Shown one piece after another: positions 5,258 through 30,486 of a stretch of DNA of 33,398 nt. The stretch is taken from NCBI GenBank assembly GCA_021779835.1, contig JAJXZX010000032.1, positions 1 through 33,398 of the forward strand, written 5' to 3'. The number at the start of each line of letters is the position of its first letter. The stretch's first letter is position 1. Below the pieces are notes generated by a model, which was given only the letters and a program-made list of their open reading frames with translations, was not told where the DNA came from and did no database searches. The position numbers and the translations under genes are program-made. Origin of the DNA: Pseudomonadota bacterium (GTDB lineage Bacteria; Pseudomonadota; Alphaproteobacteria; Rhodobacterales; Rhodobacteraceae).

Positions 5258-7036
5258 TTAGCCCGGACGGCGCAAGAGATAAAAAAAATCGCGGTTGTCG
5301 GGATAGTCGACAAACCGCGCCATCGGATGCCCGTTTCGGTCCCGCTTATCCGCCGCCGCCATGCCGGGGATGAGATGCTCAATCGGTGTCGCGCTGCCTT
5401 TGCCGGGGTACAGCGCAAGGTACGTGTGGACCAGCGCGTTCATGTCCAGATGCATGGCATAGGTGCAGCCATAGCCCTCGAAGGTGCGCGCCATGGCGGA
5501 GGGTGTGGCCGTGGAAAAATAACCGAACACGAGATAGCGTGCGGTGGGTGTTTTCAGCAGGCAAGCCCCCGAACGCAACGTGCGCAAGCGAAGGTCGGCA
5601 GAACCGGACCAGTTGCCGCCAAGCCAGCTTGTGACCTCGGAACCCGGCACGCCGGTTCCGCCATCGGGATTGCGTTCAAGCAGCGGCACCCCGTTCTGCC
5701 GGGCAAAGCGAATATGTGGTAGCAGCGCGTTATCATCCGCAGACCACGTCTTCAGATGCAAACTGCCATCGTCCAGCACAAATAGCGTGGAAAGGTCCGG
5801 TTGCAGGGTGCTCAGAACCACGCCCTGCTCGACGAACCCGTAGTGAGAGCCGTGATTGACGCGGGACAGCGGGCCGTCCTCGAATGCACCGTGGCGGCGC
5901 TTGAATCCGGCGGTGAATGTCGCCACGAGACTTGGCGCAAGGGCCGGATCGATCATACCAAGCGGCACCAGTGGGGCGGGCGATTTGATGCCGTCGGGCC
6001 CAGGAAGCGACGCATCGCGCACCGATGCCGGGGCACGCGGTGACCAGCCGAGGCCCGGGTGTTGGGTTCCCAACGCGTAGCCTAGATCGAATTTCGAAAG
6101 ATCGAAGGCAACCATGTAATCCATCGAATGTGCTTCGACGCGGTCGAGTGGGTTGGTCGTGCCGGGGCCGTTCAAGATTGAGGTGTCGAGGGCGCTTGGC
6201 GCCATCGCACTGGCAAAGACGCCCGGCACTCCATGGACCTGATACCAGGCCCCCAGATCCATTTTCCCCGGCGGCGTCCCGTCAAGGTGCAGGCCAATCC
6301 GGCTGCGCACGGTGGGATGGCGACTGGCGGCGGGAACAAGGTCGATGCTTGCCGCCAATCCCGAGGCGCCCGCATCAGGCGAAGCCGGTTCGGCTACGGC
6401 AGCCTGCGAATAGGCATCGCGCATAATGGTGTCTTTGACCAAGCCGACGATCATGTCGCCGCCCCAAACGTTATTGCGCAGGAAGTTTGCCGTCCACTCC
6501 AGCGTGGTGCTGTAGCCCGTTTGCGGATTGCGGAGGTAAAACGCCCCACCGCACAACGGCGCATAGGGCAGGTGCGTCGCGCGCGCATCGTGCAAGGCTG
6601 ACGGTGCCCCGTCCCACGGCGCGCAGGTCTGCGAGTGCCCATCCCGCGTGAGCACAAGCGTCGGCGTCGGCGTTTGGGAAAGCGTAATCTGCTGCCGCGA
6701 GGGATAGGGATTTTCAAGATGGAAATCTTGGCCGCCCGCACCGCCGCTGCCGCCGACGTGCAAAAGGAACCACGCGTTGATGGTGGGGTTTAGCGACGTA
6801 AAATCAATATTCTGCCCGTCGGAACTCTGCGCGGTGGTCAGCTGCCGGTATGGCTGCAAATCGACCACTGTTTTGGGCGCAACGCCGTGCGACACACCCT
6901 GAGTATCAACTGCCCCGGTGATTTGCGCGGCCACAACCATCGCACTGCCAAGCGTGAGCTTGAACACCAGACGGCTGGCACGACGACGAGGCGACGGGCC
7001 AGCGTGCGCGGGGCGCATCGGGGCTTGGTTGGTCAT
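5258..7036 (-). CDS. Large exported protein of uncertain function, C-terminal half weakly phosphodiester-glycosidase-like
   Basis: A 592-residue protein that I do not recognise with confidence. The ATG at 7036 is chosen because GGGAGAGG precedes it and an N-terminal signal follows: an arginine-rich stretch at about 16-23, then a hydrophobic segment at about 25-40. The mature part is rich in Gly, Pro, Ser and Thr with no other membrane helix, so it is probably periplasmic or secreted. The C-terminal third (EQGVVLSTLQPDLSTLFVLDDGSLHLKTW, broken here as EQGVVLSTL and VLDDGSLHLKTW, then YGCTYAMHLDMNAL) faintly recalls the phosphodiester glycosidase (NAGPA) fold; that is an inference from pattern only. 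It is divergent from the secreted DUF2271 gene at 7381. Confidence 0.6.
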   Translation of the reverse strand: MTNQAPMRPAHAGPSPRRRASRLVFKLTLGSAMVVAAQITGAVDTQGVSHGVAPKTVVDLQPYRQLTTAQSSDGQNIDFTSLNPTINAWFLLHVGGSGGAGGQDFHLENPYPSRQQITLSQTPTPTLVLTRDGHSQTCAPWDGAPSALHDARATHLPYAPLCGGAFYLRNPQTGYSTTLEWTANFLRNNVWGGDMIVGLVKDTIMRDAYSQAAVAEPASPDAGASGLAASIDLVPAASRHPTVRSRIGLHLDGTPPGKMDLGAWYQVHGVPGVFASAMAPSALDTSILNGPGTTNPLDRVEAHSMDYMVAFDLSKFDLGYALGTQHPGLGWSPRAPASVRDASLPGPDGIKSPAPLVPLGMIDPALAPSLVATFTAGFKRRHGAFEDGPLSRVNHGSHYGFVEQGVVLSTLQPDLSTLFVLDDGSLHLKTWSADDNALLPHIRFARQNGVPLLERNPDGGTGVPGSEVTSWLGGNWSGSADLRLRTLRSGACLLKTPTARYLVFGYFSTATPSAMARTFEGYGCTYAMHLDMNALVHTYLALYPGKGSATPIEHLIPGMAAADKRDRNGHPMARFVDYPDNRDFFYLLRRPG

Positions 7037-7380
7037 GTCCTCTCCCTTGTAGTCTGGCCTGACCATTATGTTGCCCCGCGCCGTCGACGAGATCGTCGAT
7101 GCAGGACTGCACCCAGACAGACATGGTGGACGCCACAGATGCGACGGTTTGATTTCACGCGGCCCGAAGAGTAGGCGACGCAACCTTGCGGCTCGCTGAC
7201 GGGAAAGCGGCACCACCATCAAAACGGGGGGCTTCCTGTATCGACCCAAATTCCCGCGAAACCTGTGCGATTTGACTTCCGTCAGGCTGCTAACAGGACC
7301 CCAGCGCTAAAACATCGAAGTTGCCCGGGTCTTGGCGCCATAATTCAGGCGGAGAGTCCCCTAATTGCTTGGAGCATCGC
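7037..7380. other. Intergenic region between two divergent exported-protein genes
   Basis: These 344 bases separate the starts of the large exported protein (-) and the DUF2271 protein (+). No credible reading frame or structured RNA is seen. A CATAAT hexamer at 7339-7344 could be a -10 element for the rightward gene, but a matching -35 is poor. The ribosome site for the rightward gene is GGAG at 7371-7374. Confidence 0.4.
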
Positions 7381-7918: not shown

Positions 7919-7932
7919 TTGATACAGGTCAT
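7919..7932 (+). promoter_or_regulatory. Partial FNR/FnrL-like site upstream of the group 3b hydrogenase operon
   Basis: TTGATACAGGTCAT has a perfect left half (TTGAT), the right four-base spacer and a degraded right half (GTCAT against ATCAA). It lies about 53 bp before the ATG of the beta subunit gene. If the start of transcription were 41 bp downstream of its centre, it would fall near 7967, leaving a short leader with GGAGGG before the ATG. No strong -10 is visible, so this is only a candidate. Confidence 0.4.
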
Positions 7933-7984: not shown

Positions 7985-9094
7985 ATGACGCAATACCCTG
8001 TCTCGGCGATAATGCTGCGCGACCCGTCGTTGCTGGTGGGCGCGTTGATTGCCGAGGGATGGCGTGTGATCGGGCCAAAGCTGGACCAGAACGCGATTGT
8101 TTATGATCAGTTGATCAACGGCGACGACCTGCCTCGCGGCCTGACGGACGAGCAGGAAGCGGGCCATTACCGCATGGTGCCGGGGCGCGACGGGCGGTGG
8201 TTTGATTATGTCGTCGGTCCACAAAGCTGGAAGAAGTGGCTGTTTCCGGCGCGGCAAAAGCTTTGGTCAGCGACCCGGAGAGATGATGGTTTCGACATAG
8301 AGGCCCAAGCGACCGATTGGCCAAAAACGGCGTTCATCGGGGTGCGGGCTTGCGAAATTGCCGCCATGGCGGTGCAGGATCGCGTTTTCGACAATGGCAG
8401 CTTTGCCGATTCTGCCTATGCCGTTCGGCGGCGCGACACTTTGATTGTCGCGGTGCAATGTGCCCGCTCTGGCGCAACCTGTTTTTGTGCCTCAATGGAA
8501 ACCGGACCCCGTGCCAGTGCGGGCTTTGACATCGCCCTGACAGAGTTGGACGATGGGTTGTTCGCGGACTCCGGAAGCGACCGGGGCGCGGCAATCCTTG
8601 CGCGTTTGAACGCCCACCCTGCCCAACCCCGCCAGCGGCAGGAAGCGCAAGAAGTCAGCGCGCGCGCCGCCGCCATGCAGGTGCGACGCATGCCCGCCAA
8701 TGCACCCGAGGTGCTGCGCGCCCAGCCCGATCACCCCCAGTGGGATGAGGTCGCCAACCGCTGTCTGAGCTGTGGAAACTGCACCCTCGCCTGCCCCACT
8801 TGTTTTTGCACCGACGTCGAGGATGTCACCGACCTGTCGGGCAACCATGCAGAGCGCTGGCGCAGTTGGGACAGCTGCTTCAGCGTGGACTTTACGTACG
8901 TTCACGGCGGGTCGGTCCGCCGCTCGGTCAAATCGCGCTATCGCCAGTGGATGACCCACAAATTGTCGAGTTGGGTCGATCAATTTGGCACCTCCGGCTG
9001 TGTCGGCTGTGGGCGCTGCATCACGTGGTGCCCCGTCGGCATCGACATCACCAAAGAAGTCGCCGCCATCGCGGCATCGGGATCGGAGGGCTGA
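7985..9094 (+). CDS. hydB: Group 3b-like [NiFe] sulfhydrogenase beta subunit (4Fe-4S dicluster protein)
   Basis: A 369-residue iron-sulfur protein of the sulfhydrogenase beta / anaerobic sulfite reductase A family. In the soluble heterotetramer it passes electrons between the small subunit and the flavin subunit. An N-terminal domain with GVRACEI and [10 protein letters not shown] segments is followed by two ferredoxin-like sites: Cys260, 263, 266, 270 ([12 protein letters not shown]) and Cys339, 342, 345, 349 ([12 protein letters not shown]). ATG 7985 is chosen over upstream in-frame starts because GGAGGG lies seven bases before it and the family similarity begins there. First gene of the 3b operon, with four bases before the next ATG. 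Cytoplasmic. The symbol follows Pyrococcus usage. Confidence 0.88.
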
Positions 9095-9098
9095 CCCT

Positions 9099-9569
9099 AT
9101 GCACACCCACGGATTTGAGAAAATCCTCGCCGACCATCCGCTGTTCACGTCGCTCGATACCGCAGCCCTTGCCCTGCTAGCGGGATGCGCGCGCAATGAA
9201 CACTTTCTGCAAGGTGCCACGATCTACGCCGAAGGGGACGCCGCCGACCGTTTCTTTATCCTGCGCCATGGCGACGTTGCGATGGAAATCGCAACGCCCG
9301 AACGCAGCGCTTTGATTGTCGAGACACTTCACGCGGGCGATGTGTTCGGCTGGTCGTGGATGATCGCGCCGTTCCGCCACACCTCGGATGCCCGCGCGAC
9401 AAGCGATGTGCGTGCGATCAGCCTTGATGGTGCCTGCCTTCGCCGCAAATGCGACGAAAATCCGGCGCTTGGCTATGCGCTGTTCCAGAACTGGATCCCC
9501 CACCTTGCCCGGCGGATGCGCGCCCTGCGCCTGCAAGTGCTTGACCTTTACGGCACGAGGGCGGGTTGA
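9099..9569 (+). CDS. Stand-alone cyclic-nucleotide-binding-domain protein in the hydrogenase operon
   Basis: A 156-residue protein consisting of one CRP-type beta-barrel domain and the following long helix (about 125-150), then it stops: there is no helix-turn-helix. The phosphate-binding cassette that normally begins FGE and holds an Arg-Ala pair reads FGWSWMIAPFRHTSDARA (83-100). The Glu that binds the cyclic nucleotide ribose is therefore Trp, and binding of cAMP is doubtful. The gene sits four bases after hydB and three before the gamma subunit gene, so it is co-transcribed. It may be an assembly or regulatory accessory of the enzyme rather than a transcription factor; that is inference. 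Confidence 0.8.
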   Translation: MHTHGFEKILADHPLFTSLDTAALALLAGCARNEHFLQGATIYAEGDAADRFFILRHGDVAMEIATPERSALIVETLHAGDVFGWSWMIAPFRHTSDARATSDVRAISLDGACLRRKCDENPALGYALFQNWIPHLARRMRALRLQVLDLYGTRAG

Positions 9570-9572
9570 GCG

Positions 9573-10418
9573 ATGACAGCCTCCCTGCCCCATGACCCGA
9601 TGCTGCCGCGCCGCTTTCGCGTTCTGCGTGCCTGGGCTGAAATCGACGGTGTTGCCAGTATGGAACTCACCCCGATTGACGCGCCAAGCGCGCCGTTTCG
9701 GCCCGGTCAGTTCAACATGCTTTATGCCTTTGGCGTTGGGGAAGTGCCGGTCTCGATCTCTGGCGATTTCGTGCGGCCGGAGGCGATCGTGCACACCACG
9801 CGCAATGTGGGCGCTGTCTCGGCGGCACTGGTTGCGCTGAAGGCGGGCGACATCATCGGTTTGCGCGGCCCCTTCGGGTCTGATTGGCCGGTAGCGCAGG
9901 AAACCGGGCGCCATGCGGTCTTTGTCGCGGGTGGGCTTGGCCTCGCGCCCCTGCGCCCCGCGATCTATCATGTGCTGCGAAATCGCGGTGCCTATAGTGG
10001 GCTTAGCGTGGTCTATGGCGCACGTTCGCCGGATGAGCTTCTCTTTGCAAGTGAGATGAAAGACTGGAAATCCCGCCTTGATGCCAAGGTTGAGGTGTCG
10101 GTTGACCACGCCGCCCCCGGCTGGAGCGGCCGCGTCGGAGTCGTCACCACCATTTTGGGGCGCGCCCTGTCGGGTGTCGATCCTGCCACCGTGTCGGCTT
10201 TCGTCTGCGGGCCAGAAATCATGATGAGGTTCACCGTGGAAACCCTTGCCATCGCAGGCGTTTCGCAAGATCGCATCTGGATATCGATGGAACGCAGCAT
10301 GAAATGCGCGGTGGGGTTTTGCGGCCATTGCCAGTTCGGCCCCGACTTCGTCTGCAAGGACGGACCGGTTTTCCGCCACGACACCGTCGCCGCCCGCATC
10401 GCGCTCAAGGAGGTCTAG
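9573..10418 (+). CDS. hydG: Group 3b-like [NiFe] sulfhydrogenase gamma subunit (FAD/NAD(P) reductase)
   Basis: A 281-residue ferredoxin-reductase-family protein that exchanges electrons between the hydrogenase and NAD(P)(H). The FAD-binding barrel holds RPGQFNML and PVSISG in the first 70 residues, the nucleotide domain has [13 protein letters not shown] and later FVCGPEIMM, and the C-terminus binds a 2Fe-2S cluster through Cys245, 250, 253 and 261 (CAVGFCGHC, then C), as in dihydroorotate dehydrogenase electron-transfer subunits. Length is normal. It lies between the cyclic-nucleotide-domain gene and the small subunit gene, with three-base gaps on both sides. Preference for NADP over NAD is expected from the family but not shown by the sequence. 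Confidence 0.9.
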
Positions 10419-10421
10419 GAC

Positions 10422-11192
10422 ATGGCCCCTCGTCCCAAGCTCGCCGTCTGGAAATTCGCCTCTTGCGACGGCTGCCAACTCACCCTGCTCGACTGCGAGG
10501 ACGAATTGCTGGCGATCGCCGACGCCCTGGACATCGCGCAATTTCTTGAGGCGACCAAGGTGGCGACTGATGGTCCTTATGACGTCTCGCTGGTCGAAGG
10601 CTCTATCACGACGGCCCATGATGCCCAGCGCATCCGTGACATCCGCGCGCAGACCAAGACCCTTATTACCATCGGCGCCTGCGCCACGGCGGGTGGCACC
10701 CAGTCTTTGCGCAATTTTGCAGATGTCGATGCCTACACAAGCATGGTCTATGCGCATCCCGACTACATCTCGACTCTGGCCACCTCCACCCCGATTTCGG
10801 ACCATGTGAAGGTGGATTTCGAACTGCGCGGCTGCCCGGTCTCCAAACACCAACTGCTGGAGCTGATTTCCGCCACGCTCGCCGGGCGCAAACCCCATGT
10901 TCCGCTCACATCGCAATGCACCGAATGCAAACAGCATGGCACGACCTGCGTGACGGTCGCCCATGGCATCCCCTGCCTTGGCCCGGTGACGCAGGCGGGC
11001 TGCGGCAACCTTTGCCCCTCTGTCGGGCGCGGCTGCTACGGCTGTTTCGGGCCAAAGGAAACGCCCAACGCGGCGGCGCTTTCGGCGCAGATGGCGGGGC
11101 TTGGCCTGCCGCCGCGCGCGCTGCGCGACCTCTATCGCAGCTTCAACGCGGCAGCCCCCGAATTCCAAGCGGAGAGCAAACGCCATGACTGA
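10422..11192 (+). CDS. hydD: Group 3b-like [NiFe] sulfhydrogenase delta subunit (hydrogenase small subunit)
   Basis: A 256-residue soluble hydrogenase small subunit. It carries the electron-relay iron-sulfur clusters next to the active site. The proximal cluster ligands include Cys15 and Cys18 (SCDGCQL), [10 protein letters not shown] and [11 protein letters not shown]. Further cysteines follow in [24 protein letters not shown] and RGCYGCFGP for the other clusters. There is no Tat signal and no C-terminal membrane helix, unlike the second small subunit in this window, so it is cytoplasmic. A near-perfect AGGAGGT ribosome site lies just upstream and spans the preceding stop region. The end overlaps the large subunit gene by eight bases, suggesting translational coupling. 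Confidence 0.92.
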
Positions 11193-12474
11193 GCGCATCA
11201 TTCAGGTTGACGCGCTTGCCCGCGTCGAGGGGGAAGGCGCGCTCTATGTCCGCCTCAACGGCGCGCAGATCGAGGCGGTAGAGTTCCGCATCTTCGAGCC
11301 GCCCCGGTTTTTTGAGGCCTTCATGGTCGGGCGCGACGCGCGTGAAGCCCCTGACATCACCTCGCGTATCTGCGGCATCTGTCCGATTGCGTATATCATG
11401 GGGGCCAGTCAGGCGGTCGAACAGGCGCTTGGCATCGGCACCTCGCCAGACATCGAGGCGCTGCGCCGGATGCTCTATTGCGGCGAGTGGATTCAAAGCC
11501 ACGTTCTGCACGCCGCCATGTTGCACGCGCCGGATTTTCTGGGGCTGGCCGACGCGATTGAGATCGCCAAGACCAACCCCGACCTCGTGCGCAAGGCGCT
11601 GCGCCTGAAGAAGCTGGGCAATACGTTGATGGAGGTGATCGGCGGCCGCTCGGTCCATCCCGTCAACACGCGGATCGGCGGGTTTTACCGCGCGCCGGAG
11701 GTTGAGCGGATCCGGGCGCTGATCCCAGAGCTTGAGTGGGGCGCGCAGGCGGCACGCGAATTGACGCTGGCTTTCGCGGGGTTTGATTTTCCGGCGGATG
11801 AGTATGATTACCACTTCGTCTCGCTGGTCCATCCAGAGGATTATCCGATCACGCAGGGGCGGATTGGGTCCAGCCGGGGCCTCGACATCCCGGTCGCTGA
11901 TTTCAACGCGCATTTCAGCGAACACCATGTCGCGCGGTCCAACGCCTTGCAGGGGCGGATGAAGGATGGGTCGGCCTACCTTGTCGGGCCGCTGGCGCGC
12001 TATACCAACAACTATGACCGGCTGTCGGCCAGTTGTCAGGCGACGGCGCTTGAGGCCGGGTTGGGGCCAGTGGTGCGCAATCCATTCAAGTCGATCCTCG
12101 TGCGGATGATCGAAGTGCAATATGCCTGCGAAGAAGCGGCGCGCATTGCGGGCAGTTATGTCGCCCCCAGCCCCGCCTTTTTCGTTGCGCCGGACCGCGC
12201 GGGCGAGGGTCATGGCTGCACCGAAGCGCCGCGCGGCTTGTGTTACCACCATTACCGCATCGACGCCGAGGGTCGCATCGAGATGGCGCAGATCGTGCCG
12301 CCCACCTCGCAGAACCAGCCGCAGATAGAGGCCGACCTTACGCGGGTGGTTGCGGCAAACCTAGGTATGGCCGACGACGCGTTGAAGTGGCGCTGCGAGC
12401 AGACGATCCGCAACTATGACCCCTGCATTTCCTGCGCGACGCATTTCCTGAAGCTGACGGTTGACCGTGTCTGA
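11185..12474 (+). CDS. hydA: Group 3b-like [NiFe] sulfhydrogenase alpha subunit (catalytic large subunit)
   Basis: A 429-residue NiFe catalytic subunit that reversibly oxidises H2. The N-terminal nickel motif is RICGIC at residues 61-66 and the C-terminal one DPCISCATH at 412-420, giving the four cysteines that hold the NiFe site. Nine residues (FLKLTVDRV) follow the His and should be removed by the maturation protease encoded next. ATG 11185 lies in the eight-base overlap ATGACTGA with the small subunit stop. The short length, soluble partners and flavin subunit place it in group 3b rather than group 1. In archaea these enzymes can also reduce sulfur or polysulfide; that activity is not provable here. 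Confidence 0.93.
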
Positions 12475-12940
12475 CCGCCCGTTGTTCGTGGGCATCGGCA
12501 ATGCTTTCCGCCGCGACGACGGGCTTGGCCCCTGGGTCGCCGAGGCACTGGCGGCGCGCGGGCTGAACGCTGTGCCACATGCGGGCGACGGCGCGGGCTT
12601 GCTCGATCACTTTGCGGCCTCCCCCTCGGTGGTGCTGATTGACGCCACGCGCAGCGGGGCGGCGGCCGGCACCCTGCGACGTCTTGATGCGCGGGCGGAG
12701 GCGATCCCGGCCGAGTTTTTCCACTATTCCACGCATCGCTTTGGCCTTGCCGAGGCGGTGGAGACCGCGCGCGCGCTGGGGCTTTTGCCCGCGCGCCTGA
12801 TCATCTATGGCATCGAGGGCAGCGATTTCGGTGCGGGTCTTGGCCTTAGCGCGCCGGTGCCGGCGGCAGCAACCGCCCTAATCACAGCATTGATTGGCGC
12901 GGGCGAGACGCCTCGCGGTTCAGTAGCACAGAACCTTTAA
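12467..12940 (+). CDS. Hydrogenase maturation protease for the group 3b enzyme
   Basis: About 157 residues of the HyaD/HycI nickel-dependent endopeptidase family, which trims the C-terminus of the large subunit after NiFe insertion. Family residues are visible: GIGNAFRRDDG near the N-terminus, LIDATRSG in the middle and STHRFGL with the His ligand. GTG 12467 is chosen because GTGTCTGA repeats the eight-base overlap seen between delta and alpha genes; TTG 12461 is an alternative. Being last in the operon, it most likely processes the alpha subunit just upstream. Its 3' end overlaps the end of the opposite-strand DsrE-family gene by 21 bases. Confidence 0.88.
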   Translation: MSDRPLFVGIGNAFRRDDGLGPWVAEALAARGLNAVPHAGDGAGLLDHFAASPSVVLIDATRSGAAAGTLRRLDARAEAIPAEFFHYSTHRFGLAEAVETARALGLLPARLIIYGIEGSDFGAGLGLSAPVPAAATALITALIGAGETPRGSVAQNL

Positions 12941-13294
12941 ATCATCGTCTTCCATGACCTTTTCGATCACCGCCGCGCCACCCAAAATCCCCTCACATTC
13001 CGGGATCAGGTCGTCCACCGTCATGTCAAACAGATCCAGGTTGGGCGAACAGCAGTAGAATTTCACCCCGGCGTCATGCGCGTCCTTGATGAAATCGTAA
13101 ACGGACTTTGGCGACCCGGCTTTGACGAACAGCTTTTCCGCCACGCCCTTTTTCAGCAACCGGCCAGAGGTCGCGGTGCAAACCACCTCTACCTCATAAT
13201 CCATCGCGGCGGCGACGGTCGCCTGAAAGAAAGGCGCGCCGAGCTCTTCGCGCGGGTCGGTATTAGCCATCATGATCAGCAGTTTTTTCGCCAT
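12920..13294 (-). CDS. DsrE-family protein, last gene of the Isp-type hydrogenase operon
   Basis: A 124-residue single-domain DsrE/DsrF-like protein, a small alpha/beta family that often carries sulfur as a persulfide on cysteine or serves as a peroxiredoxin-like accessory. The chain starts KKLLIMMANTDP and holds cysteines at 39, 81, 82, 100 and 123. The adjacent pair Cys81-Cys82 (FYCCSPNLDL) lies where DsrE-type proteins have an active cysteine. It follows isp2 by 24 bases with an AAGGA site, so it belongs to the same transcript. The link to sulfur traffic is inference from family and context. Its tail overlaps the 3' end of the convergent protease gene. Confidence 0.8.
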   Translation of the reverse strand: MAKKLLIMMANTDPREELGAPFFQATVAAAMDYEVEVVCTATSGRLLKKGVAEKLFVKAGSPKSVYDFIKDAHDAGVKFYCCSPNLDLFDMTVDDLIPECEGILGGAAVIEKVMEDDDLKVLCY

Positions 13295-13318
13295 CCGGCC
13301 TATTCCTTCTGTCGTCGT

Positions 13319-14578
13319 TCAGGCCGATTTGGCCGCGCCATCGTCAAGATGTTCCGCAACGATTTCAACAAGGCTTTCCAGCCCGCCGTCCCACTTCCAG
13401 TGGATCTTGCTTTCATCCATCGTCAGACGGCAATTGGCGCAGGCTGACACCAGTGTATTCGTGCCGGTTGCCGCGACCTGATCTATCTTGATCTTGAAGA
13501 CCTTGTGGCGCAAATCCGCCGCGCGCCCGATTGCCTGCACCCCACCACCACCACCGCAGCACCAGTTCATTTCCGCCGTGGGCGTCATCTCGTGGAAATC
13601 GGTGGCAAAGCCTTCGAGGATATAGCGCGCATCGGCCGCCGCCCCGCCTCGGCGCGAGATCTGACAGGGGTCGTGATAGGTCATCGCGGTGTCGTAGGGC
13701 TTCAGATGCAGCCGCCCCTCGCGCTTTAGTTTTGCCATGTATTCGGTGATGTGCAGCACCTCGAACGGCAAGGGCCGCCCAAGGATATTGGCCGCGCTCC
13801 ATCGCAGCACGCCGTAGGCATGGCCGCATTCCGGGATCACCACCGTCTTCGCGCCCACCTTTTCGGCTGCATCGACAATGCGCTGGATCATGATCTTGGC
13901 GATATCGCCACGCCCGGCGAGGTAGCCAAAGTTGGTCGCCTCATAGCCCGTGGTGGAGAACGTCCAGTCAACCCCGGCATGGGTCATGATTTTCGCCATC
14001 GCCGACAGCGAGGTCGGGTATTTCATCGCCTCAATCGAGGAAACGGTCAGCAGGACGTCGGAATGTGCCTTGTCCACCACCATCGCGACCTCTTGGTCGT
14101 CGGCCAGCCAGTCAAGCCGGTCGATGAGTTTCGCCGGGGTCAGGCCCAGCGGACTGCCATGATCGCGCGAATTTTCCGCCGCTTGCAAAAGGTCGGCTGG
14201 CCCCAATCCCGCCGCGACAAACGCCTTGCGCGCCTGCCCCACGATCGAGGCGATGTCGATGCCCATCGGGCAAACCTCGGTGCAGCGGCCGCACATGGTG
14301 CAGGTGTCAAAGATCAGCTCTTCCCATTCGGTCAGGTCTTTTTCGGTGATCTTTGGCGCAAGGCCCAACCATTTCAGCGGCCATTTCTGCCCCCGGTAGG
14401 CCTTGGCAATCGGGAACAGTTTGTAGGCGGGCGTGTGGCGCGGATCGCCCGAGGTTCGGTAGAACAGGCAGGCGTCGGCACATTGGCCGCAATGCACGCA
14501 AGCCTCCAGATAACTGACCAGATGTTCCTCGGTCTGGGCGAGGAACGTGCGGGTTGCGGCCTGAACGTCGATGGTCAT
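13319..14578 (-). CDS. isp2: Isp2, HdrD-like iron-sulfur subunit of the Isp-type hydrogenase
   Basis: A 419-residue protein similar to heterodisulfide reductase subunit D. Two 4Fe-4S ferredoxin motifs stand at Cys27, 30, 33, 37 and Cys93, 96, 99, 103. The C-terminal half has one complete CCG domain: Cys305, Cys340-341 and Cys380/383 with about 35 residues between. The first CCG repeat is degenerate, keeping Cys251 in PECGHAYG. No membrane helix is present; it should sit on the cytoplasmic side against Isp1. With Isp1 it is proposed in purple sulfur bacteria to pass electrons between the HynSL hydrogenase and a thiol/disulfide or sulfur-linked partner. An SD of AGGAGG overlaps the preceding stop codon. 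Confidence 0.88.
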   Translation of the reverse strand: MTIDVQAATRTFLAQTEEHLVSYLEACVHCGQCADACLFYRTSGDPRHTPAYKLFPIAKAYRGQKWPLKWLGLAPKITEKDLTEWEELIFDTCTMCGRCTEVCPMGIDIASIVGQARKAFVAAGLGPADLLQAAENSRDHGSPLGLTPAKLIDRLDWLADDQEVAMVVDKAHSDVLLTVSSIEAMKYPTSLSAMAKIMTHAGVDWTFSTTGYEATNFGYLAGRGDIAKIMIQRIVDAAEKVGAKTVVIPECGHAYGVLRWSAANILGRPLPFEVLHITEYMAKLKREGRLHLKPYDTAMTYHDPCQISRRGGAAADARYILEGFATDFHEMTPTAEMNWCCGGGGGVQAIGRAADLRHKVFKIKIDQVAATGTNTLVSACANCRLTMDESKIHWKWDGGLESLVEIVAEHLDDGAAKSA

Positions 14579-14587
14579 GGCGCCCTC

Positions 14588-16333
14588 CTAGTTGACGGTG
14601 ACCTGCATCAGTTCCGTGCCGTCGGGATCGACGACGTGAACCGCGCAGGCAATACAGGGGTCGAAAGAGTGGATGGTGCGCAGGATTTCAAGCGGCTGCT
14701 TGGGGTCATAGAGCGTGTGACGATCCATCAGCGCGGCCTCATACGGGCCGGGTTTTCCATGGGTATCGCGCGGTCCGGCGTTCCACGTCGAGGGCACAAC
14801 CGCCTGATAATTCTCGATCTTGGCGTCCTTGATGACAACCCAATGGGCCAGCGCCCCGCGTGGCGCCTCCATGAAACCCACGCCGCGCGCTTCGGCGGGC
14901 CAGGTCGAGGGATCCCACTTCGCCTCGTTATGCACGGCCATGTCGCCTGCCTTGATATTGGCGACAAGGTTCGCGTACCAGATCGACATCTGGTCAGCGA
15001 CGATCTTGCTTTCCAACGTCCGCGCCGCCGTCCGCCCCATCGTCGAAAACATCGCCGTCAGCGGCAGGTCGAGCTTTTTCAGCGCCATGCCCGCCAGTTC
15101 CCTGGTCGGCTCATGCCCCTTGGCGTAAAGCATCAGCACCCGCGCCAACGGCCCCACCTCCATCACGTTGCCCTTCCAGCGCGGCGATTTCAGCCAGCTG
15201 TAGCTGTCTTCGACATTCAGCTGATCGTAAGGGGGTTTGGGTCCGGTATAGTTCAGGTTGGTCTCGCCCGCATAGGGATGCAAACCGCCCGTCTTGCCGC
15301 CCGAGTAGTCGTAGTAGGAGTGCGAGACGAATTCCTGCACCTGCGACGGATCGTTCAGATCGACCGGGTGGATGGTGCTAAGATCGCGGTTCAGGATTGC
15401 ACCGGACGGGATCAGCCAGCTCGAGGGATCACCGATCCCCTTTTCCGGAAAATCACCGAACGTCATGAAGTTGCCAACCCCTTCGCCGCGCGCGAACCAA
15501 TCTTTGTAGTAGGACGCAATCGCCAGCGTGTCGGGCACATAGACCTGATCGACAAACTCCTGCATCCGCGCGATCACCGATTTGATCTGATCGAGCCCGG
15601 CCATGTTCAACGCGGTGCCCGAAACCCCGCCAGAGGCCCCCGGATTGATGCTGATCGGCGAGGGAGAGCCGCCGACAAGGAAGTTCGGATGCGGGTTCTT
15701 GCCACCAAAGATCGTGTGGATCTGCACCACCTCACGCTGCCACTGCAACGCTTCAAGGTAATGCGCGACGGCCATCAGGTTCGCCTCTGGCGGCAGTTTA
15801 TAGCCGGGGTTGCCCCAATAGCCGTTGGCGAAGATACCAAGCTGGCCGCCCTCGACAAAGGTTTTGATCTTCTTTTGCACGTCCGCGAAATAGCCCGGGC
15901 TCGACTTCGGCCAACTGGAAATCGACTGCGCCAAGGCCGATGTCGCCGCCGGATCGGCCTTCAGCGACGAGACGACATCGACCCAGTCAAGCGCGTGCAG
16001 GTGGTAGAAATGCATCACATGGTCATGCACATATTGCGCGGCAATCATCAGGTTGCGGATCAATTGCGCGTTGGGCGGAATGGGATATTTCAGCGCGTCC
16101 TCGACGGCGCGCACGCTGGCAATGCCGTGCACCAACGTGCAGACGCCGCAGATGCGCTGCGCAAAGGCCCAAGCCTCGCGCGGGTCGCGGCCCTTCAGGA
16201 TCAACTCGATCCCGCGCACCATGGTGCCAGAGGAATAGGCGCCGATGATCGTGCCATCTGCCGAAGTCTCGGCCTCAATGCGCAGATGCCCTTCGATGCG
16301 GGTGACCGGGTCAACGACGACGCGTTGGGTCAT
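14588..16333 (-). CDS. hynL: Group 1 (Isp-type) [NiFe] hydrogenase large subunit
   Basis: A 581-residue catalytic subunit of a membrane-associated group 1 hydrogenase. It starts with the typical VVVDPVTRIEGHLRIE, carries RICGVC at 60-65 and DPCIACAVH at 558-566. Fifteen residues (VVDPDGTELMQVTVN) follow the His and should be cleaved during maturation. Full-length for the family. It lacks an export signal and would cross the membrane bound to the Tat-signal small subunit. AAGGA precedes the ATG. It lies between isp1 (16 bases upstream) and isp2 (9 bases downstream); in Thiocapsa the published order is hynS-isp1-isp2-hynL, so the last two are swapped here. Confidence 0.94.
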   Translation of the reverse strand: MTQRVVVDPVTRIEGHLRIEAETSADGTIIGAYSSGTMVRGIELILKGRDPREAWAFAQRICGVCTLVHGIASVRAVEDALKYPIPPNAQLIRNLMIAAQYVHDHVMHFYHLHALDWVDVVSSLKADPAATSALAQSISSWPKSSPGYFADVQKKIKTFVEGGQLGIFANGYWGNPGYKLPPEANLMAVAHYLEALQWQREVVQIHTIFGGKNPHPNFLVGGSPSPISINPGASGGVSGTALNMAGLDQIKSVIARMQEFVDQVYVPDTLAIASYYKDWFARGEGVGNFMTFGDFPEKGIGDPSSWLIPSGAILNRDLSTIHPVDLNDPSQVQEFVSHSYYDYSGGKTGGLHPYAGETNLNYTGPKPPYDQLNVEDSYSWLKSPRWKGNVMEVGPLARVLMLYAKGHEPTRELAGMALKKLDLPLTAMFSTMGRTAARTLESKIVADQMSIWYANLVANIKAGDMAVHNEAKWDPSTWPAEARGVGFMEAPRGALAHWVVIKDAKIENYQAVVPSTWNAGPRDTHGKPGPYEAALMDRHTLYDPKQPLEILRTIHSFDPCIACAVHVVDPDGTELMQVTVN

Positions 16334-16349
16334 GGCTTGGTCCTTTCGG

Positions 16350-17009
16350 TCAAATCTTCACCCCACGCCGGCCGTAAGAAATTCCGGTCTCGGCGCGGGT
16401 CAGGAAAACGAGGAATGCGTGCATCAGTTTGCCAAAGGGAAACCAGATCAGCAGCGCGGCGATTGTTAGCATATGGATGGCCAGCAGCGTCTCATACCGC
16501 GCGCCAAGGTGGCTGACGGCCAGAAGCCCGGTCAGCACCGGGGCCGTGGTGATCGCCCAGGTGAAATAGTCGTTGACGGTCGAGATCAGCCGCATCACCG
16601 GACTGGTCACGCGCCGCACCAGCGCCGCCACCAGCGAGGCAAGCGTCACAATCGCCGCGACAGAGATCACGCTGGTTGGCAAGCCCGGCCAGTGAACGCC
16701 GAACAGCCCCTGCAAGACGAGGATGTGCTGCGCAAAACCGAACACGATTATCGCCAGCCCGAGGTGGAAGATATAGCCGTTGATCATGGCGAAGGTTGAG
16801 GTTTGCCCCATCGCCTTCGGCACCCACATGTGACGCACAAACCCCGTGATCGCGGCTTTGACATCAGACGGTGCACCGATGCGGCGGGCCGTCTTGTCCG
16901 ACGCCCACGGCAGGCCAAGCAGACTGATCAGCCGCCACAGGACCCCCAGCACGAACACCGCCATTGCGAAGGTCAGCGCGGGTCCGCGCGCGAAATCAAG
17001 CAGGGTCAT
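16350..17009 (-). CDS. isp1: Isp1, cytochrome b subunit of the Isp-type hydrogenase
   Basis: A 219-residue integral membrane protein with about five hydrophobic helices, of the NarI-like cytochrome b type. Histidines in the helices (IFHLGLAIIVFGFAQHI, VSHLG, LLAIHMLTI, GKLMHAF) are candidates for two heme b groups. It would anchor the periplasmic HynSL pair and move electrons across the membrane to Isp2 or the quinone pool. ATG 17009 overlaps the small subunit stop as ATGA. A longer frame upstream is only read-through in the small-subunit region. Next gene follows after 16 bases. Identification as Isp1 relies on the hynS/hynL/isp2 neighbours as well as the heme pattern. Confidence 0.88.
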   Translation of the reverse strand: MTLLDFARGPALTFAMAVFVLGVLWRLISLLGLPWASDKTARRIGAPSDVKAAITGFVRHMWVPKAMGQTSTFAMINGYIFHLGLAIIVFGFAQHILVLQGLFGVHWPGLPTSVISVAAIVTLASLVAALVRRVTSPVMRLISTVNDYFTWAITTAPVLTGLLAVSHLGARYETLLAIHMLTIAALLIWFPFGKLMHAFLVFLTRAETGISYGRRGVKI

Positions 17010-18106
17010 GGCGTCTTCTCCTGTGTCACTACCGCCGCGGAGGCTGCCGCTTGCGCGGCCAGTGCGGCCGCGCGCCGTTTGCGTGCCAGCGCCACACTTG
17101 CGGCACCCGCCGCCACGCCAGCCACCGCAGCCCCGCCGATGATTTCTCGGTTGCCCATCACCGCTGCCGACAACGGTTTGTAAAAGCCGCCGCGGTCCCA
17201 AAATCCGGGCTCTGAACAGCCCAGGCAGCCGTGCCCGGACTGGATCGGGAAGCTGACGCCGCCGTTCCATTTCAGCGTGGCGCAGGCGTTGTAGGTGACC
17301 GGGCCCTTGCAGCCGACCTCGTAAAGGCACCAACCGTTGCGCGCGCCTTCGTCGTCAAACGACTTGGCGAACTGCCCCTTGTCGTAGAACGGACGCCGGT
17401 AGCAGCGGTCGTGGATCGAGTCGCCAAAGAACGCCTTGGGGCGGTTCAGGTGATCCAGATCGGGCAGCTTGCCGAAGGTAATGATATAGGCCACGGTCCC
17501 GGCAATCGCCTCGGGGATGGGCGGGCAGCCAGAGATGTTGATGACCGGCTTGTCGGTGATGATCTCTGATACCGGCACCGCGCCGGTCGGGTTTGGCTTG
17601 GCCATCGGGATGCCGCCAAAGGCCGCGCAGGTGCCGACCGACAGCACCGCCATGGCATCCGCAGCGACCTCTTTCAACGTCTCAAGGTTAGACTTGCCTG
17701 CGTTGGTCGAATAGACGCCCCCCGCGCCGGTCGAGACCGAGCCATCGACCACCAGCACATACTTTCCCTTGTTCGCCGTGCGCGCCGCCTGCATCGCCCC
17801 TTCGGCAGCGGTCCCGGCGGACGCCATCAGCGTCTCCTGGTAGTCCAGTGAAATCAGGTTGAAGATCATGTCTTCGATGGTCGGGTTGAACGAGCGCGTC
17901 AGCGATTCCGTGCAGCCCGTACATTCCTGAAACGACAGCCAGATCACGGATTGCCGCTTGGCGCTTGCCAGCGCGTCCGCCATCGCGCGCGAGGCCATAG
18001 GGGGTAATGCAAGGATCGAGGCGAGGTAGCCCGTATATTTCAACAGCGACCGCCGCGAGATCCCTTGGGCAATAAGCGCCTCGCCGATGGTTCCCGTCTC
18101 AGACAT
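17006..18106 (-). CDS. hynS: Group 1 (Isp-type) [NiFe] hydrogenase small subunit, Tat-exported
   Basis: A 366-residue small subunit with a twin-arginine signal: SRRSLLKYTGYLA with Arg18-Arg19, then a hydrophobic stretch to about residue 40. The proximal cluster ligands begin at Cys62/Cys65 (ECTGCTES) with GTCAAFGG and ISGCPPIPE further on. The medial and distal cluster cysteines follow (HDRCYRRP, WCLYEVGCKG, YNACATLKWNGG, HGCLGCSEP). After about residue 320 comes a C-terminal glycine/alanine-rich helix and a positively charged tail, a likely membrane anchor. ATG 18106 is preferred to a start five codons upstream because GAGGAGAGG precedes it. The complex would face the periplasm. It overlaps the upstream HupH-type gene by eight bases. 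Confidence 0.93.
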   Translation of the reverse strand: MSETGTIGEALIAQGISRRSLLKYTGYLASILALPPMASRAMADALASAKRQSVIWLSFQECTGCTESLTRSFNPTIEDMIFNLISLDYQETLMASAGTAAEGAMQAARTANKGKYVLVVDGSVSTGAGGVYSTNAGKSNLETLKEVAADAMAVLSVGTCAAFGGIPMAKPNPTGAVPVSEIITDKPVINISGCPPIPEAIAGTVAYIITFGKLPDLDHLNRPKAFFGDSIHDRCYRRPFYDKGQFAKSFDDEGARNGWCLYEVGCKGPVTYNACATLKWNGGVSFPIQSGHGCLGCSEPGFWDRGGFYKPLSAAVMGNREIIGGAAVAGVAAGAASVALARKRRAAALAAQAAASAAVVTQEKTP

Positions 18107-18485
18107 GTTCCCTCTCCTCAAGCTCTGCCGCCATCCGCGTGGCGGCGGCGCTGATATCTTCGGGATGTGCGCTCAGAATATCGGGCACCGGCGTCACTTC
18201 GATGACTTCGGCGGCAACGCGCCCGTCACCGCCGAAATGGCGCAACCACCAGACCCCGGTAAAGCGCGTCTCCCATATCTCGCTTTTGCCCGCCGCCTCC
18301 AACACCACGCCCACATCGCCACGCCCCAGCGCGGCCTCCAACTCCTCGCGGTCCGCGAGCGTCAGGGGCAGACTGCGCAGGTCGATGGCATCCCGCGTCC
18401 CGGTCGCGGCAAGAACAGAAAGCGCGAGAGAGATTTCGCGCAGGATGCTTTGCGCCATACCGGTTCGTCCAACATCACCGTTCAT
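18099..18485 (-). CDS. Stand-alone HupH C-terminal-domain hydrogenase expression protein
   Basis: A 128-residue protein matching only the C-terminal domain of HupH/HyaF hydrogenase expression proteins, which help mature the small subunit and its clusters in oxygen-respiring hydrogenase producers. Typical segments are IDLRSLPLTLADREELEAALG and WETRFTGVWWLRH (each shown in part). Full HupH is roughly twice this length; the N-terminal domain is absent with no trace of it upstream, since the frame begins inside the protease gene. GGAGGA precedes ATG 18485. It overlaps the protease gene by 11 bases and hynS by 8, so all three are coupled. Specific action on HynS is inferred from position. Confidence 0.83.
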   Translation of the reverse strand: MNGDVGRTGMAQSILREISLALSVLAATGTRDAIDLRSLPLTLADREELEAALGRGDVGVVLEAAGKSEIWETRFTGVWWLRHFGGDGRVAAEVIEVTPVPDILSAHPEDISAAATRMAAELEEREHV

Positions 18486-18978
18486 GCCAATCCTCCAGCA
18501 AAGCCAAAATTGCAGCGACCGCCCACGGAATTGCCGCAGCTACTGCCGGTGTCGGCACCAGACCCCAGGTCGTCACCTCGGGCTGAATAGCCACGAGCGC
18601 ACGCCGCGCGGGGCCGATACCGGCAAAATCCGACGCCTGAATCAGGTCGGCCAAAGCCACCTCATGTGCGCTTCGCTTGGTTCCGCGCAGTTGGCGATCC
18701 ATCTCGGCGTCCACAAAGACCCGCACTGTGCCGGGTGCCGCGTGCAGTTCCATTGCATCGACCGCGATCAGTCCCGCGCCGGGTTCGATCTCGGCCAACA
18801 GCGACAGCCCTATCGTGCCGCCATCCCGCACACGCACCGGATAGCGAAGCCCCGGTGCAGCCTGAACCGCCGCCACGACATGCACGCCAACGCCATCATC
18901 GCTCAACAGAGTATTGCCGATCCCCAAAACCAGCGTGGCGGGGACAGTGACGGCAAGGATTTCGGCAGGGACGGTCAT
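18475..18978 (-). CDS. hynD: Hydrogenase maturation protease for the Isp-type enzyme
   Basis: A 167-residue HyaD/HupD-type nickel-dependent endopeptidase. Motifs are GIGNTLLSDDGVG near residue 20, AVDAMELHAAPG in the middle and SAHEVALADL with the conserved His. It should cut the 15-residue tail from HynL. As first gene of the minus-strand operon its promoter is probably the FNR-type promoter 50 bases upstream. GGGGAG precedes ATG 18978. The family's first metal ligand is Glu in HyaD/HybD but Asp in HycI-type enzymes; here the motif is Asp-Asp-Gly. The name hynD is assigned by position next to hynS/hynL. Confidence 0.88.
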   Translation of the reverse strand: MTVPAEILAVTVPATLVLGIGNTLLSDDGVGVHVVAAVQAAPGLRYPVRVRDGGTIGLSLLAEIEPGAGLIAVDAMELHAAPGTVRVFVDAEMDRQLRGTKRSAHEVALADLIQASDFAGIGPARRALVAIQPEVTTWGLVPTPAVAAAIPWAVAAILALLEDWHER

Positions 18979-19001: not shown

Positions 19002-19042
19002 GCTATACGCCGCAAAAGGCATATGTCATTGATCTGAATCAG
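19002..19042 (-). promoter_or_regulatory. Candidate FNR-dependent promoter of the Isp hydrogenase operon
   Basis: On the minus strand a TATAGC hexamer (19007 to 19002) lies downstream of the FNR box at 19029-19042. A transcript start about seven bases after the hexamer, near 18995, puts the centre of the box at about -41, the classical class II activation distance. The start codon of the protease gene is at 18978 with a short leader holding GGGGAG. Confidence 0.6.
19029..19042. promoter_or_regulatory. FNR/FnrL binding site in the divergent hydrogenase promoter
   Basis: TTGATCTGAATCAG matches the FNR consensus TTGAT-N4-ATCAA at nine of ten fixed bases. The site is almost midway between the starts of hynD (18978, -) and hypC (19097, +). 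FnrL in Rhodobacterales is an oxygen-labile iron-sulfur activator, so low oxygen should turn on both sides. Confidence 0.75.
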
Positions 19043-19096: not shown

Positions 19097-19333
19097 ATGT
19101 GCCTTGCCATTCCCATGAAGGTAACCGTGATCGACGGCGTCATGGCGCAGTGCGAGGCACGCGGGGCCACCCGCCACGCCAGCCTGTTTCTCATGGAGCA
19201 CGAGGGCATTTCGGTCGGCGACTATGTCCTCATCCAGTCGGGGCACATCACGGCCAAAGTCTCTGAAACCGAGGCCGCGAGCACATGGGCGCTTTATGAC
19301 GAAATGCTTGGCGCGGGGCTGGTAACAGGCTGA
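19097..19333 (+). CDS. hypC: Hydrogenase assembly chaperone HypC/HybG family
   Basis: A 78-residue HypC-type chaperone beginning MCLAIPMKV; Cys2 is the residue that holds the Fe(CN)2CO unit with HypD before transfer to the large subunit. The rest is a small beta barrel (VIDGVMAQCEARG, VGDYVLIQSGHITAKVS) and a short helix. AGGA precedes the ATG. It is the only general Hyp gene in the window and stands alone, divergent from hynD and sharing the FNR box. It may be specific to one of the two hydrogenases or a second copy of a hypC elsewhere. A GATAGC hexamer at 19063-19068 could be its -10, again placing the box at about -40. Confidence 0.92.
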   Translation: MCLAIPMKVTVIDGVMAQCEARGATRHASLFLMEHEGISVGDYVLIQSGHITAKVSETEAASTWALYDEMLGAGLVTG

Positions 19334-19425: not shown

Positions 19426-19473
19426 CCTCTTTTGAACGCCCAAAGGTTGGGCCGACACGCGCAGGAGGGGACG

Positions 19474-20268
19474 TTGCCGCAAGCGGAAGCACTTCTGGTG
19501 AGCCAATCGAACGGCGTTTTGCGCTTGACGCTGAACCGCCCGGACCGGCTCAACGTCTTCAACGAAGCGCTGCATCTGGCGATGCGCGCGGGATTGGAGC
19601 GGGCACATGAAGATCCCGAGGTGCGGGCCGTCCTGTTGACCGGATCGGGGCGCGGATTTTGCGCTGGTCAGGATCTTGGCGACCGCGACCCGCGCAAGGG
19701 CGGCGCGGCACCCGACCTCGGCGCCACGCTGGACACCCATTACAACCCGACGCTGCGATTGATCCGCGCGCTGGAAAAGCCAGTCATCTGTGCGGTGAAC
19801 GGCGTCGCGGCGGGGGCTGGGGCAAACCTCGCACTCGCCTGCGACATCGTTCTGGCGGCGAAGTCGGCGCGGTTCATTCAATCCTTCGCCAAAATCGGTC
19901 TGGTGCCGGATGCTGGCGGCAGTTGGACCCTGCCCCACCTGATTGGCGAGGCGCGCGCCAAGGCCTTGGCGCTGACGGCAGAACCGCTTGACGCCGAAAC
20001 CGCCGCCGCTTGGGGCCTGATCTGGAGGGCGGTCGAGGATGACGCCTTGATGGACGAGGCCGAAGCCCTGGCGCAGCGTCTGGCCTCTGGGCCGACCAAG
20101 GGTCTTGGCCTGATCAAACGCGCCATCCACGCCGCTGCCGGAAACAGCTTTGACGCCCAGCTCGACCTGGAGCGCGACCTCCAGCGCGAGGCGGGCCGAA
20201 GCGCCGACTATGCCGAGGGCGTTACCGCTTTCCTCGAAAAACGCCAACCGGAGTTTCGCGGCAGATGA
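19474..20268 (+). CDS. paaG: PaaG, ring-1,2-epoxyphenylacetyl-CoA isomerase
   Basis: A 264-residue crotonase-family enzyme that turns ring-1,2-epoxyphenylacetyl-CoA into the oxepin. Signature parts: LRLTLNRPDRLNVFN at the start, GFCAGQDLGDRDPRKGG (61-77), VNGVAAGAGANLALACD (109-124) and IGLVPDAGG (141-149), where Asp146 matches the catalytic Asp of E. coli PaaG. The start is taken as TTG 19474, with AGGAGG at 19463-19468. The ATG at 19420 in the same frame lies inside the operator and has no ribosome site; it would add 18 residues not typical of PaaG. First gene of the paaGIK-tetR operon; its stop overlaps paaI as ATGA. Confidence 0.88.
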   Translation: MPQAEALLVSQSNGVLRLTLNRPDRLNVFNEALHLAMRAGLERAHEDPEVRAVLLTGSGRGFCAGQDLGDRDPRKGGAAPDLGATLDTHYNPTLRLIRALEKPVICAVNGVAAGAGANLALACDIVLAAKSARFIQSFAKIGLVPDAGGSWTLPHLIGEARAKALALTAEPLDAETAAAWGLIWRAVEDDALMDEAEALAQRLASGPTKGLGLIKRAIHAAAGNSFDAQLDLERDLQREAGRSADYAEGVTAFLEKRQPEFRGR

Positions 20269-20705: not shown

Positions 20706-20733
20706 TCCGAATTCTTTCGAGGGAGGAGACCTT

Positions 20734-22044: not shown

Positions 22045-22075
22045 GACAGCGGCGACGCAGCAAAGGCAGCAGGTC

Positions 22076-22672: not shown

Positions 22673-22687
22673 GCTTCGGCCCTAGCG
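22667..22687. terminator. Two-way hairpin spanning the stop codons of paaR and paaZ
   Basis: CGCTAGG (22667-22673) pairs with CCTAGCG (22681-22687) around a C-TTCG-G tetraloop, with one bulged C. The TAG stop of the TetR gene and the complementary stop of paaZ lie in opposite arms of the stem. Only nine bases separate the two genes, so the hairpin is the sole barrier between the convergent operons. No T-run follows. Confidence 0.6.
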
Positions 22688-24745: not shown

Positions 24746-24756
24746 AATTTGTGTCC

Positions 24757-25512: not shown

Positions 25513-25521
25513 GGCGGCCCC

Positions 25522-26598: not shown

Positions 26599-26618
26599 CA
26601 GGCATCACCTCCGCATCG

Positions 26619-27128: not shown

Positions 27129-27132
27129 CGCC

Positions 27133-28193: not shown

Positions 28194-28221
28194 GTCGTGG
28201 TCCTCCTGACCTGCGATAGGT

Positions 28222-29223: not shown

Positions 29224-29240
29224 TTATGGATCCTCCCCGA

Positions 29241-30446: not shown

Positions 30447-30486
30447 GTGCAGCTTTCCTCCCACCGCTCCGTCGTCGCGATCAGTC

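Follow-up and report, generated by a model that had tools for sequence, protein, structure and literature searches.

A variant Isp-type [NiFe] hydrogenase with neighbours that point to sulfur metabolism, paired tail to tail with a group-3b-type enzyme in a Rhodobacteraceae genome

The window analysed here, the whole 33,398-nucleotide (nt) stretch of the Rhodobacteraceae contig JAJXZX010000032.1, encodes two [NiFe] hydrogenases in complete operons: a group-3b-type enzyme (3b) on the forward strand (7985–12940) and an Isp-type, group 1e-like enzyme on the reverse strand (12920–18978). Each operon has its own small and large subunit, nickel-site motifs and protease, and their last genes overlap by 21 bp at 12920–12940 (Table 1). 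A first-pass annotation, made from the sequence alone, had described two hydrogenases encoded tail to tail, each with its own protease, and its coordinates, strands and gene identities hold. As a pair, 3b and Isp form an ordinary hydrogenase island, though one that recurs. The Isp half is the more interesting part: its sequence and surroundings suggest a hydrogenase variant whose cytoplasmic subunit, Isp2, and genomic neighbours point to the sHdr pathway.

The window's Isp-type enzyme is assigned to group 1e by its nearest relatives, and has an uptake-type large subunit with RICGVC and DPCIACAVH motifs, with Isp1 and Isp2 in the operon. It resembles the HydSL/HynSL enzymes with Isp1/Isp2 of Allochromatium, Thiocapsa and Acidithiobacillus (group 1e) in subunit type, twin-arginine translocation (Tat) signal, Isp1, Isp2 and a protease of its own, but differs from them in gene order, in the branch to which its Isp2 belongs and in an attached DsrE gene. 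In T. bogorovii, isp1 and isp2 lie between hydS and hydL (PMC10892978), the order in At. ferrooxidans is hynS-isp1-isp2-hynL (PMC7735108), and isp genes had been assumed always to separate the two structural genes (PMC11018855). In the window the order is S-isp1-L-isp2, where S and L are the small- and large-subunit genes. We scanned GTDB contigs with an Isp2 alignment and used the best 80 of 150 confirmed loci; 62 of these carry an Isp-type large subunit, in 60 genomes, and in 46 of the 62 isp2 follows the large-subunit gene, as in the window. Because of this position of isp2, the enzyme is filed as a variant and not as a canonical group 1e member. A literature search of open-licence papers for the isp1-L order gave only unrelated ones.

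The same-order loci nest among canonical ones in a quick large-subunit tree (Shimodaira–Hasegawa-like approximate likelihood ratio test support of 94 and 82 at the forks in question). The Isp2 tree places them with 11 loci that lack an adjacent hydrogenase (support 100/100), and a tree that keeps the hydrogenase Isp2 sequences together is rejected (log-likelihood 267.8 lower; approximately unbiased test, p-AU 0.00025); the long-branched rows L046, L048 and L049 were omitted from these careful Isp trees. An FdhC-like gene lies upstream of Isp1 in 12 of the 18 hydrogenase-free loci of the scan (L090, L091, L097, L101, L102, L104, L106, L107 and L110–L113), which are all 12 on the alphaproteobacterial Isp2 branch; the other six gave no FdhC match. 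Four of the FdhC–Isp1–Isp2 loci also encode FDH3-type formate dehydrogenase subunits FdhA and FdhB; another four, lacking FdhAB, lie near sHdr-LbpA-LipS-type genes. These loci, from Allgaiera, Hyphomicrobiaceae and others, have their Isp2 on the same branch as that of the window, which is 61–67% identical to theirs, but FdhC, with or without FdhAB, takes the place of the hydrogenase. This is most simply explained if a copy of the FdhC–Isp1–Isp2 type replaced isp2, a presumed direction of exchange that, like its function, we infer from sequence comparison. If Isp2 was exchanged, the electron port of a hydrogenase would be swappable independently of its catalytic core.

The genes beside these cassettes point towards sulfur oxidation. 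At least two of seven sHdr-LbpA-LipS-type genes, counted within the fetched flanks and at most 10 kb from Isp2, lie near 13 of the 46 same-order cassettes, 1 of 16 canonical ones and 5 of 18 loci without an adjacent hydrogenase; random placement of one sHdr-type cluster per genome would give 0.28 of 46. On a stricter count, an Hdr subunit or LbpA gene is present in 6 of the 46 (L059, L062, L068, L083, L086 and L109), and for L077 further along the contig (stretch L190). The names rest on HdrB, HdrC, GcvH, DsrE2 and LipS2 family matches and on resemblance, with only DsrE2 over its NCBIfam cut-off; LipS1 and a glutamine-amidotransferase-like gene of L062 take their names from position or likeness. 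In Limimaricola the Isp cassette is flanked by sHdrC2-sHdrB2-LbpA-DsrE2 and LipS1-LipS2. In Acidimangrovimonas (L062) it follows LipS-type genes and is succeeded by DsrE, the amidotransferase-like gene, DsrE, an sHdrC1-like gene, sHdrB1, C2, B2, LbpA and DsrE2. The Isp-type enzyme thus likely connects hydrogen with sulfur metabolism, because its kin repeatedly adjoin sulfur-oxidation genes. The first-pass annotation had linked both hydrogenases to sulfur; the link gains from these neighbours and from the DsrE gene for the Isp half, but not for the 3b half, since no such genes occur in the congeners' fetched 3b loci, where cytochrome bd genes adjoin instead.

The DsrE gene is the last of the window's Isp operon. 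Its product is 76–82% identical to DsrE in 14 loci outside the genus, mostly with sHdr-LbpA-LipS-type genes, and CCSPNLDLFDM is invariant in a ten-row alignment. The short Isp2–DsrE junction is also found in congener G001 and in Acidimangrovimonas; branching in the DsrE tree was not resolved. The known system to which this gene can be likened is the DsrE3C-sHdr-LbpA system of Hyphomicrobium denitrificans, in which dsrE heads the shdr genes (PMC6067878, PMC10451225, PMC12423496) in the order dsrE-hdrC1B1A-hyp-hdrC2B2-hyp-lbpA (PMC6067878). The likeness runs through DsrE beside sHdr-type genes in the relatives; unlike that system, the window has no sHdr, LbpA or LipS gene match. As observations on the gene itself, the window's DsrE (12920–13294) lacks an NG or NP pair that is present in nine other aligned homologues, an in-frame shortening on the N-terminal side, and L062 has two DsrE copies (L062:11250–13160), after isp2 and before the sHdrC1-like gene, with the amidotransferase-like gene between them.

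We compared the pair across seven genomes of the genus, the window's own and six congeners (G001–G006). The 3b enzyme is present in all seven and the Isp enzyme in four; HupSL-type matches (51–58% identity) were set aside as other hydrogenase groups. Only in the window's genome do the two share a contig, which does not support a conserved 3b–Isp module in the genus. In G001 they lie on separate contigs, of 438 kb and 283 kb, and in G003, G005 and G006 3b was found without Isp. The assemblies of G002 and G004 are fragmented; since the 3b tail faces cydB there, a tail-to-tail Isp neighbour is excluded, and one on the head side is still possible. The 3b operon is convergent with the cytochrome bd genes cydAB in all six congeners (L038, L040, L041, L043, L044 and L045; CydAB identified by Pfam names from the G001 copies and from the cyd locus of the window's genome), and the cydAB locus of the window's genome has no 3b operon. 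Around the Isp locus of G004 some genes are common with G001 and others with G002, and none of these is in the window. The phenylacetate degradation (paa) cluster that adjoins the window's pair was found in 3 of the 7 genomes, and the fetched stretches of G001 and G002 have no hydrogenase next to it. Both operons are thus sited elsewhere than in the congeners, and the pair is therefore likely to be derived in this lineage.

Beyond the genus, the two enzymes co-occur. A 3b large subunit (at least 47% identity) is encoded in 22 of the 60 Isp-carrying genomes, compared with 10 of 394 family and 11 of 385 class background genomes; the background counts include the window's genome in both, ignore genome kinship and use a 1e-60 cut-off, at which 21 of the 60 carriers count (G838 stands at 3.9e-59). 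The 22 are made up of 18 of 50 plus four more, with weak 29% matches in G820, G821 and G823 excluded, and three of them are congeners (L057, L058 and L060 are records of G001, G004 and G002; L059 is of G255). L057 was kept in the FNR-box, gene-order and sHdr counts, and L058 and L060 in the gene-order and sHdr counts. The two enzymes share a contig in nine of the 22 co-carriers, eight of them within 20 kb against 0.28 expected at random; four of the nine pairs were placed by equal contig size and positions, one of these being confirmed by stretch L190. L087 and L092 are sisters in both trees and so count as one event, leaving seven. Layouts vary: Isp is followed by 3b in one direction in L064, L087 and L092, L126 has 3b first and hyp genes after the Isp set, L074 is another tail-to-tail case (in a metagenome-assembled genome (MAG) labelled Terriglobia, possibly a stray contig), and others are looser. 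Among 25 genomes with 3b, seven have an Isp-type large subunit at 70% identity or more, and only in the window's do the two share a contig. Thus the adjacency recurs without being conserved: linked loci are found elsewhere in differing layouts and are rare in the genus, which makes the pair a recurrent island and no fixed module. The first-pass annotation had taken separate occurrence of the operons in related genomes as the sign of a chance pairing. Such separation is what the genus shows, and it tells against a fixed module; mere chance fails as well, being ruled out as the full explanation by the eight of 22 pairs within 20 kb.

The only hyp gene found in the window is hypC, just outside the 7985–18978 interval; none for HypA, B, D, E or F turned up. 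Only one hypC nearby had been reported before; the count was correct, but the gene goes with the Isp cassette, since a hypC diverges at most 700 nt from the Isp protease gene in 30 of 43 readable loci, often as part of a hyp operon. The same genome encodes HypA, B, C, D, E and F on contig C23, with HupUV- and HupSL-type genes, and each of the seven genus genomes has one HypD, on neither hydrogenase contig. Because the divergent hypC recurs and the single HypD lies elsewhere, the window's hypC is assigned to the Isp enzyme by its genomic position, and the maturation of both hydrogenases probably relies on the remote Hyp set.

Promoters were compared with the FNR-type palindrome consensus. A box with at most one mismatch lies upstream of 19 of 45 Isp cassettes, 10 of them perfect (200 dinucleotide shuffles: mean 0.6, maximum 3); the TTGATCTGAATCAG box in the window's Isp/hypC divergent promoter has one mismatch. 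The cydA gene of the window's genome has a perfect box. Before the window's 3b operon stands a suggestive site, TTGATACAGGTCAT, and in the congeners a TTGCGCCA(G/C)ATCAA site occurs in 5 of 5 readable 3b promoters, 33–50 nt before the aligned start. From these sites we infer low-oxygen, FNR-type control of both operons. Scans for promoters and terminators yielded no useful signal over shuffles, and TTG-N8-CAA sites were no more frequent than chance.

These observations are brought together in a proposal that we consider evenly poised: the window would encode two parallel low-oxygen H2 enzymes that rely on one remote Hyp set, and Isp2 and DsrE are the predicted link between H2 and sulfane sulfur. 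For the 3b enzyme, a cytoplasmic electron exchange between H2 and NAD(P)H is predicted, and it would act as a separate NADPH valve, with no direct wiring to the Isp enzyme. The Isp-type enzyme, predicted to be exported by the Tat pathway, would hand electrons from H2 in the periplasm to the quinone pool via Isp1. Isp2, possibly taken over from a formate-dehydrogenase/sHdr-type module, would be a cytoplasmic electron port that delivers electrons to a thiol or sulfur carrier, and DsrE may carry sulfane sulfur at this port. FNR-type control at low oxygen would be the common reason for the pair. The recurrent link between Isp cassettes and sHdr-LbpA-LipS-type genes, together with the CCG-domain Isp2 and, here, DsrE at the junction, names concrete candidate partners. 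A bolder version, unlikely in our estimate, is that a proteobacterial Isp-hydrogenase clade swapped its Isp2 for one from an FdhC–Isp1–Isp2 module serving sulfur oxidation by sHdr; H2, formate and protein-bound sulfane sulfur would then share one interchangeable membrane port, DsrE would be the sulfur-side partner and the enzymes would be hydrogen:sulfane-sulfur oxidoreductases.

Several observations weigh against the proposal of a sulfur-linked Isp enzyme under low-oxygen control. Of 41 same-order loci with room for it, only 2 have DsrE directly after Isp2, one of which is congener G001; it is not so placed in Rhodobacter sp. SW2 or Limimaricola, and in L085, outside the 41 because of a contig end, it lies 735 nt after Isp2. 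No sHdr-type gene was found in the window, the congeners' fetched loci or the genome's own soxB contig (the rest of the genome was not searched), and eight sHdr-LbpA query proteins had no match in the window or in the genome's own stretches L055, L194, L195, L209, L212 and L213. sHdr genes also adjoin L119, and L129 and L133 have LbpA alone as a neighbour; as these three cassettes are canonical, the sHdr link is not confined to cassettes with an exchanged Isp2. LipS-type genes on their own, as in L103 and L105, need not signify sHdr. On whether Isp1 moved along with Isp2, the Isp1 tree gives no decision (p-AU 0.098 and 0.289). The window's Isp box is not significant alone, at least one box arising in 38 of 100 shuffles, and its 3b box carries two mismatches. 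Finally, 3b lies 14–16 kb from group 1d genes in G164 and G099, so that the clustering may merely reflect hydrogenase islands.

This last point leads to an alternative that we regard as rather improbable: a loose hydrogenase island, in which general clustering (nickel supply, maturation, island transfer) would account for the adjacency, with neither functional pairing nor a sulfur role. Besides the group 1d neighbours, the differing layouts of linked 3b–Isp loci and the separate contigs of G001 fit such an island. However, the Hyp set of this genome is on another contig, so shared maturation does not account for the adjacency, and the recurrence of both FNR-type boxes and sHdr-type genes at Isp cassettes weighs against such an island as well. 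The earlier coupling of the two enzymes into one H2–sulfur circuit, with periplasmic H2 oxidation by the Isp enzyme and a cytoplasmic 3b enzyme balancing NADPH, can draw on the non-random adjacency across Isp carriers, on the SoxB encoded in this genome and on reports that tie group 1e to sulfur respiration and, controversially, some group 3b enzymes to sulfhydrogenase activity (PMC7735108). We nevertheless consider it very improbable: 3b occurs without a found Isp enzyme in three of the seven genus genomes and beside cydAB in six, and no sHdr-type gene accompanies it in the congeners' loci.

Concerning origin, the 11-kb pair might have been acquired as one piece by horizontal transfer, between a DUF2271 gene and the paa cluster. 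Neither operon occupies the congeners' site, and in a 43-row tree of 3b large subunits the six congeners group (99/97) with the window's copy outside; related large subunits are also carried by a Methylovirgula plasmid (73%) and a conjugative Bradyrhizobium plasmid (69%). However, a smaller, 16-row 3b tree has a weak branch (59/77) with all seven rows of the genus on the same side and does not decide between a moved and a replaced operon, the Isp large subunit is 85–89% identical to those of the congeners, no whole-block relative was found in 72,556 plasmid records at megablast sensitivity, and the GC content at third codon positions (GC3) of the block resembles that of its flanks. We judge one-piece acquisition to be distinctly unlikely. 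The anatomy of the block is given in Table 1.

Table 1 Features of the two hydrogenase operons and their promoter regions in the window
Feature	Position	Strand	Matches and motifs
Weak FNR/CRP-like site before the 3b operon	7919–7932		TTGATACAGGTCAT, 2 mismatches; suggestive only
HydB/HyhB-like beta subunit (4Fe-4S), 3b operon	7985–9094	+	NCBIfam NF040833 E 6e-45, under equivalog cut-off; PF17179
HoxI-like cyclic-nucleotide-binding-domain protein, 3b operon	9099–9569 (start approximate)	+	PF00027 E 5e-15
HydG-like gamma subunit, FAD/NAD(P)-binding	9573–10418	+	NF006220 E 3e-52, NF040835; PF00175, PF10418
3b-type small (delta) subunit	10422–11192	+	NF040831 E 2e-43; PF01058
3b-type [NiFe] large (alpha) subunit	11185–12474	+	NF040828 E 6e-73; L1 RICGIC, L2 DPCISCATH
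3b operon maturation protease	12461–12940 (start approximate)	+	TIGR00072 over cut-off, PF01750
DsrE-family sulfur-carrier-like protein, last Isp-operon gene	12920–13294	-	PF13686, PF02635
Isp2, 4Fe-4S dicluster and CCG-domain protein	13319–14578	-	PF02754, PF13183; best NCBIfam HmcF/DsrK/TmcB, under cut-offs
Isp-type [NiFe] large subunit	14588–16333	-	PF00374 776 bits, full length; RICGVC and DPCIACAVH
Isp1, membrane cytochrome-like anchor	16350–17009	-	NF045716 (HmcE) E 1e-32, NF045723 (TmcC) E 3e-32, from longer open reading frame 16350–17333
Isp-type small subunit with twin-arginine signal	17006–18106	-	SRRSLLK; TIGR00391 434 bits; PF14720
HupH C-terminal-domain accessory protein	18099–18485	-	PF04809 E 2e-29
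Isp operon maturation protease, HyaD/HybD type	18475–18978	-	TIGR00072 over cut-off; TIGR00140 E 3e-29
FNR-type palindrome, Isp/hypC divergent promoter	19029–19042		TTGATCTGAATCAG, 1 mismatch; recurs at this position in relatives
HypC, divergent partner of the Isp operon	19097–19333	+	MCLAIPMKV

The 3b operon is placed in its group by the presence of the B-G-S-L subunits, a FAD/NAD(P) subunit and a cytosolic large subunit. It has the four-subunit B-G-S-L order with protease of the group 3b (sulf)hydrogenases HyhBGSL/HydBGDA but differs from them by the additional HoxI-like gene between B and G, a homologue of which sits there in all six congeners. HoxI is the name used for such a gene in another alphaproteobacterial 3b cluster (PMC12319191); HoxI-like genes are reported in 3b clusters of a methanotroph (PMC12319191) and R. 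equi (PMC13332983). The best PDB matches of the 3b large subunit are sulfhydrogenase 1 alpha, and its subunits do not reach the NCBIfam equivalog cut-offs of the archaeal sulfhydrogenases. All Isp1 and Isp2 family matches are likewise under equivalog cut-offs. Every part named in the first-pass inventory is present; the HoxI-like, HupH-domain and DsrE genes had been overlooked.

Both large subunits are predicted to be catalytic, because the L1 and L2 cysteine motifs are kept. The differing C-terminal tails noted earlier are confirmed in the translations: FLKLTVDRV, nine residues after DPCISCATH, in the 3b enzyme and VVDPDGTELMQVTVN, 15 residues after DPCIACAVH, in the Isp enzyme. For the latter the best PDB chain is 3myr_B (E 6e-277, 923 bits, against 722 for the next chain), which we take to be from A. 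vinosum. It terminates exactly at the aligned H566, the histidine preceding the 15-residue tail, and removal of the tail is consistent with this end point.

Elsewhere in the window, a 663-residue open reading frame (5258–7249) had no Pfam or NCBIfam match at E 0.001, a tRNA scan found no gene, and the paa cluster occupies 19471–30449, with the PaaK and PaaZ families over cut-off. The plasmids with related large subunits are Methylovirgula pHY1 (L214) and Bradyrhizobium BTAi1 pBBta01 (L215). In pHY1 a gene for an (Fe-S)-binding protein, isp2 by position, lies before the protease gene, a third place for isp2; for pBBta01, no (Fe-S) Isp2-like gene is annotated in the stretch read, and the large-subunit gene is followed by a hyp set. 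The Thioalkalivibrio Isp cassettes L127, L130, L131 and L135 have in common a CRP-like palindrome, GTGATC(T/C)AGATCAC, upstream of the protease gene. Finally, a Bradyrhizobium MAG (G787) carries the 3b large-subunit gene in two nearly identical copies, each on its own contig (L174 and L184).

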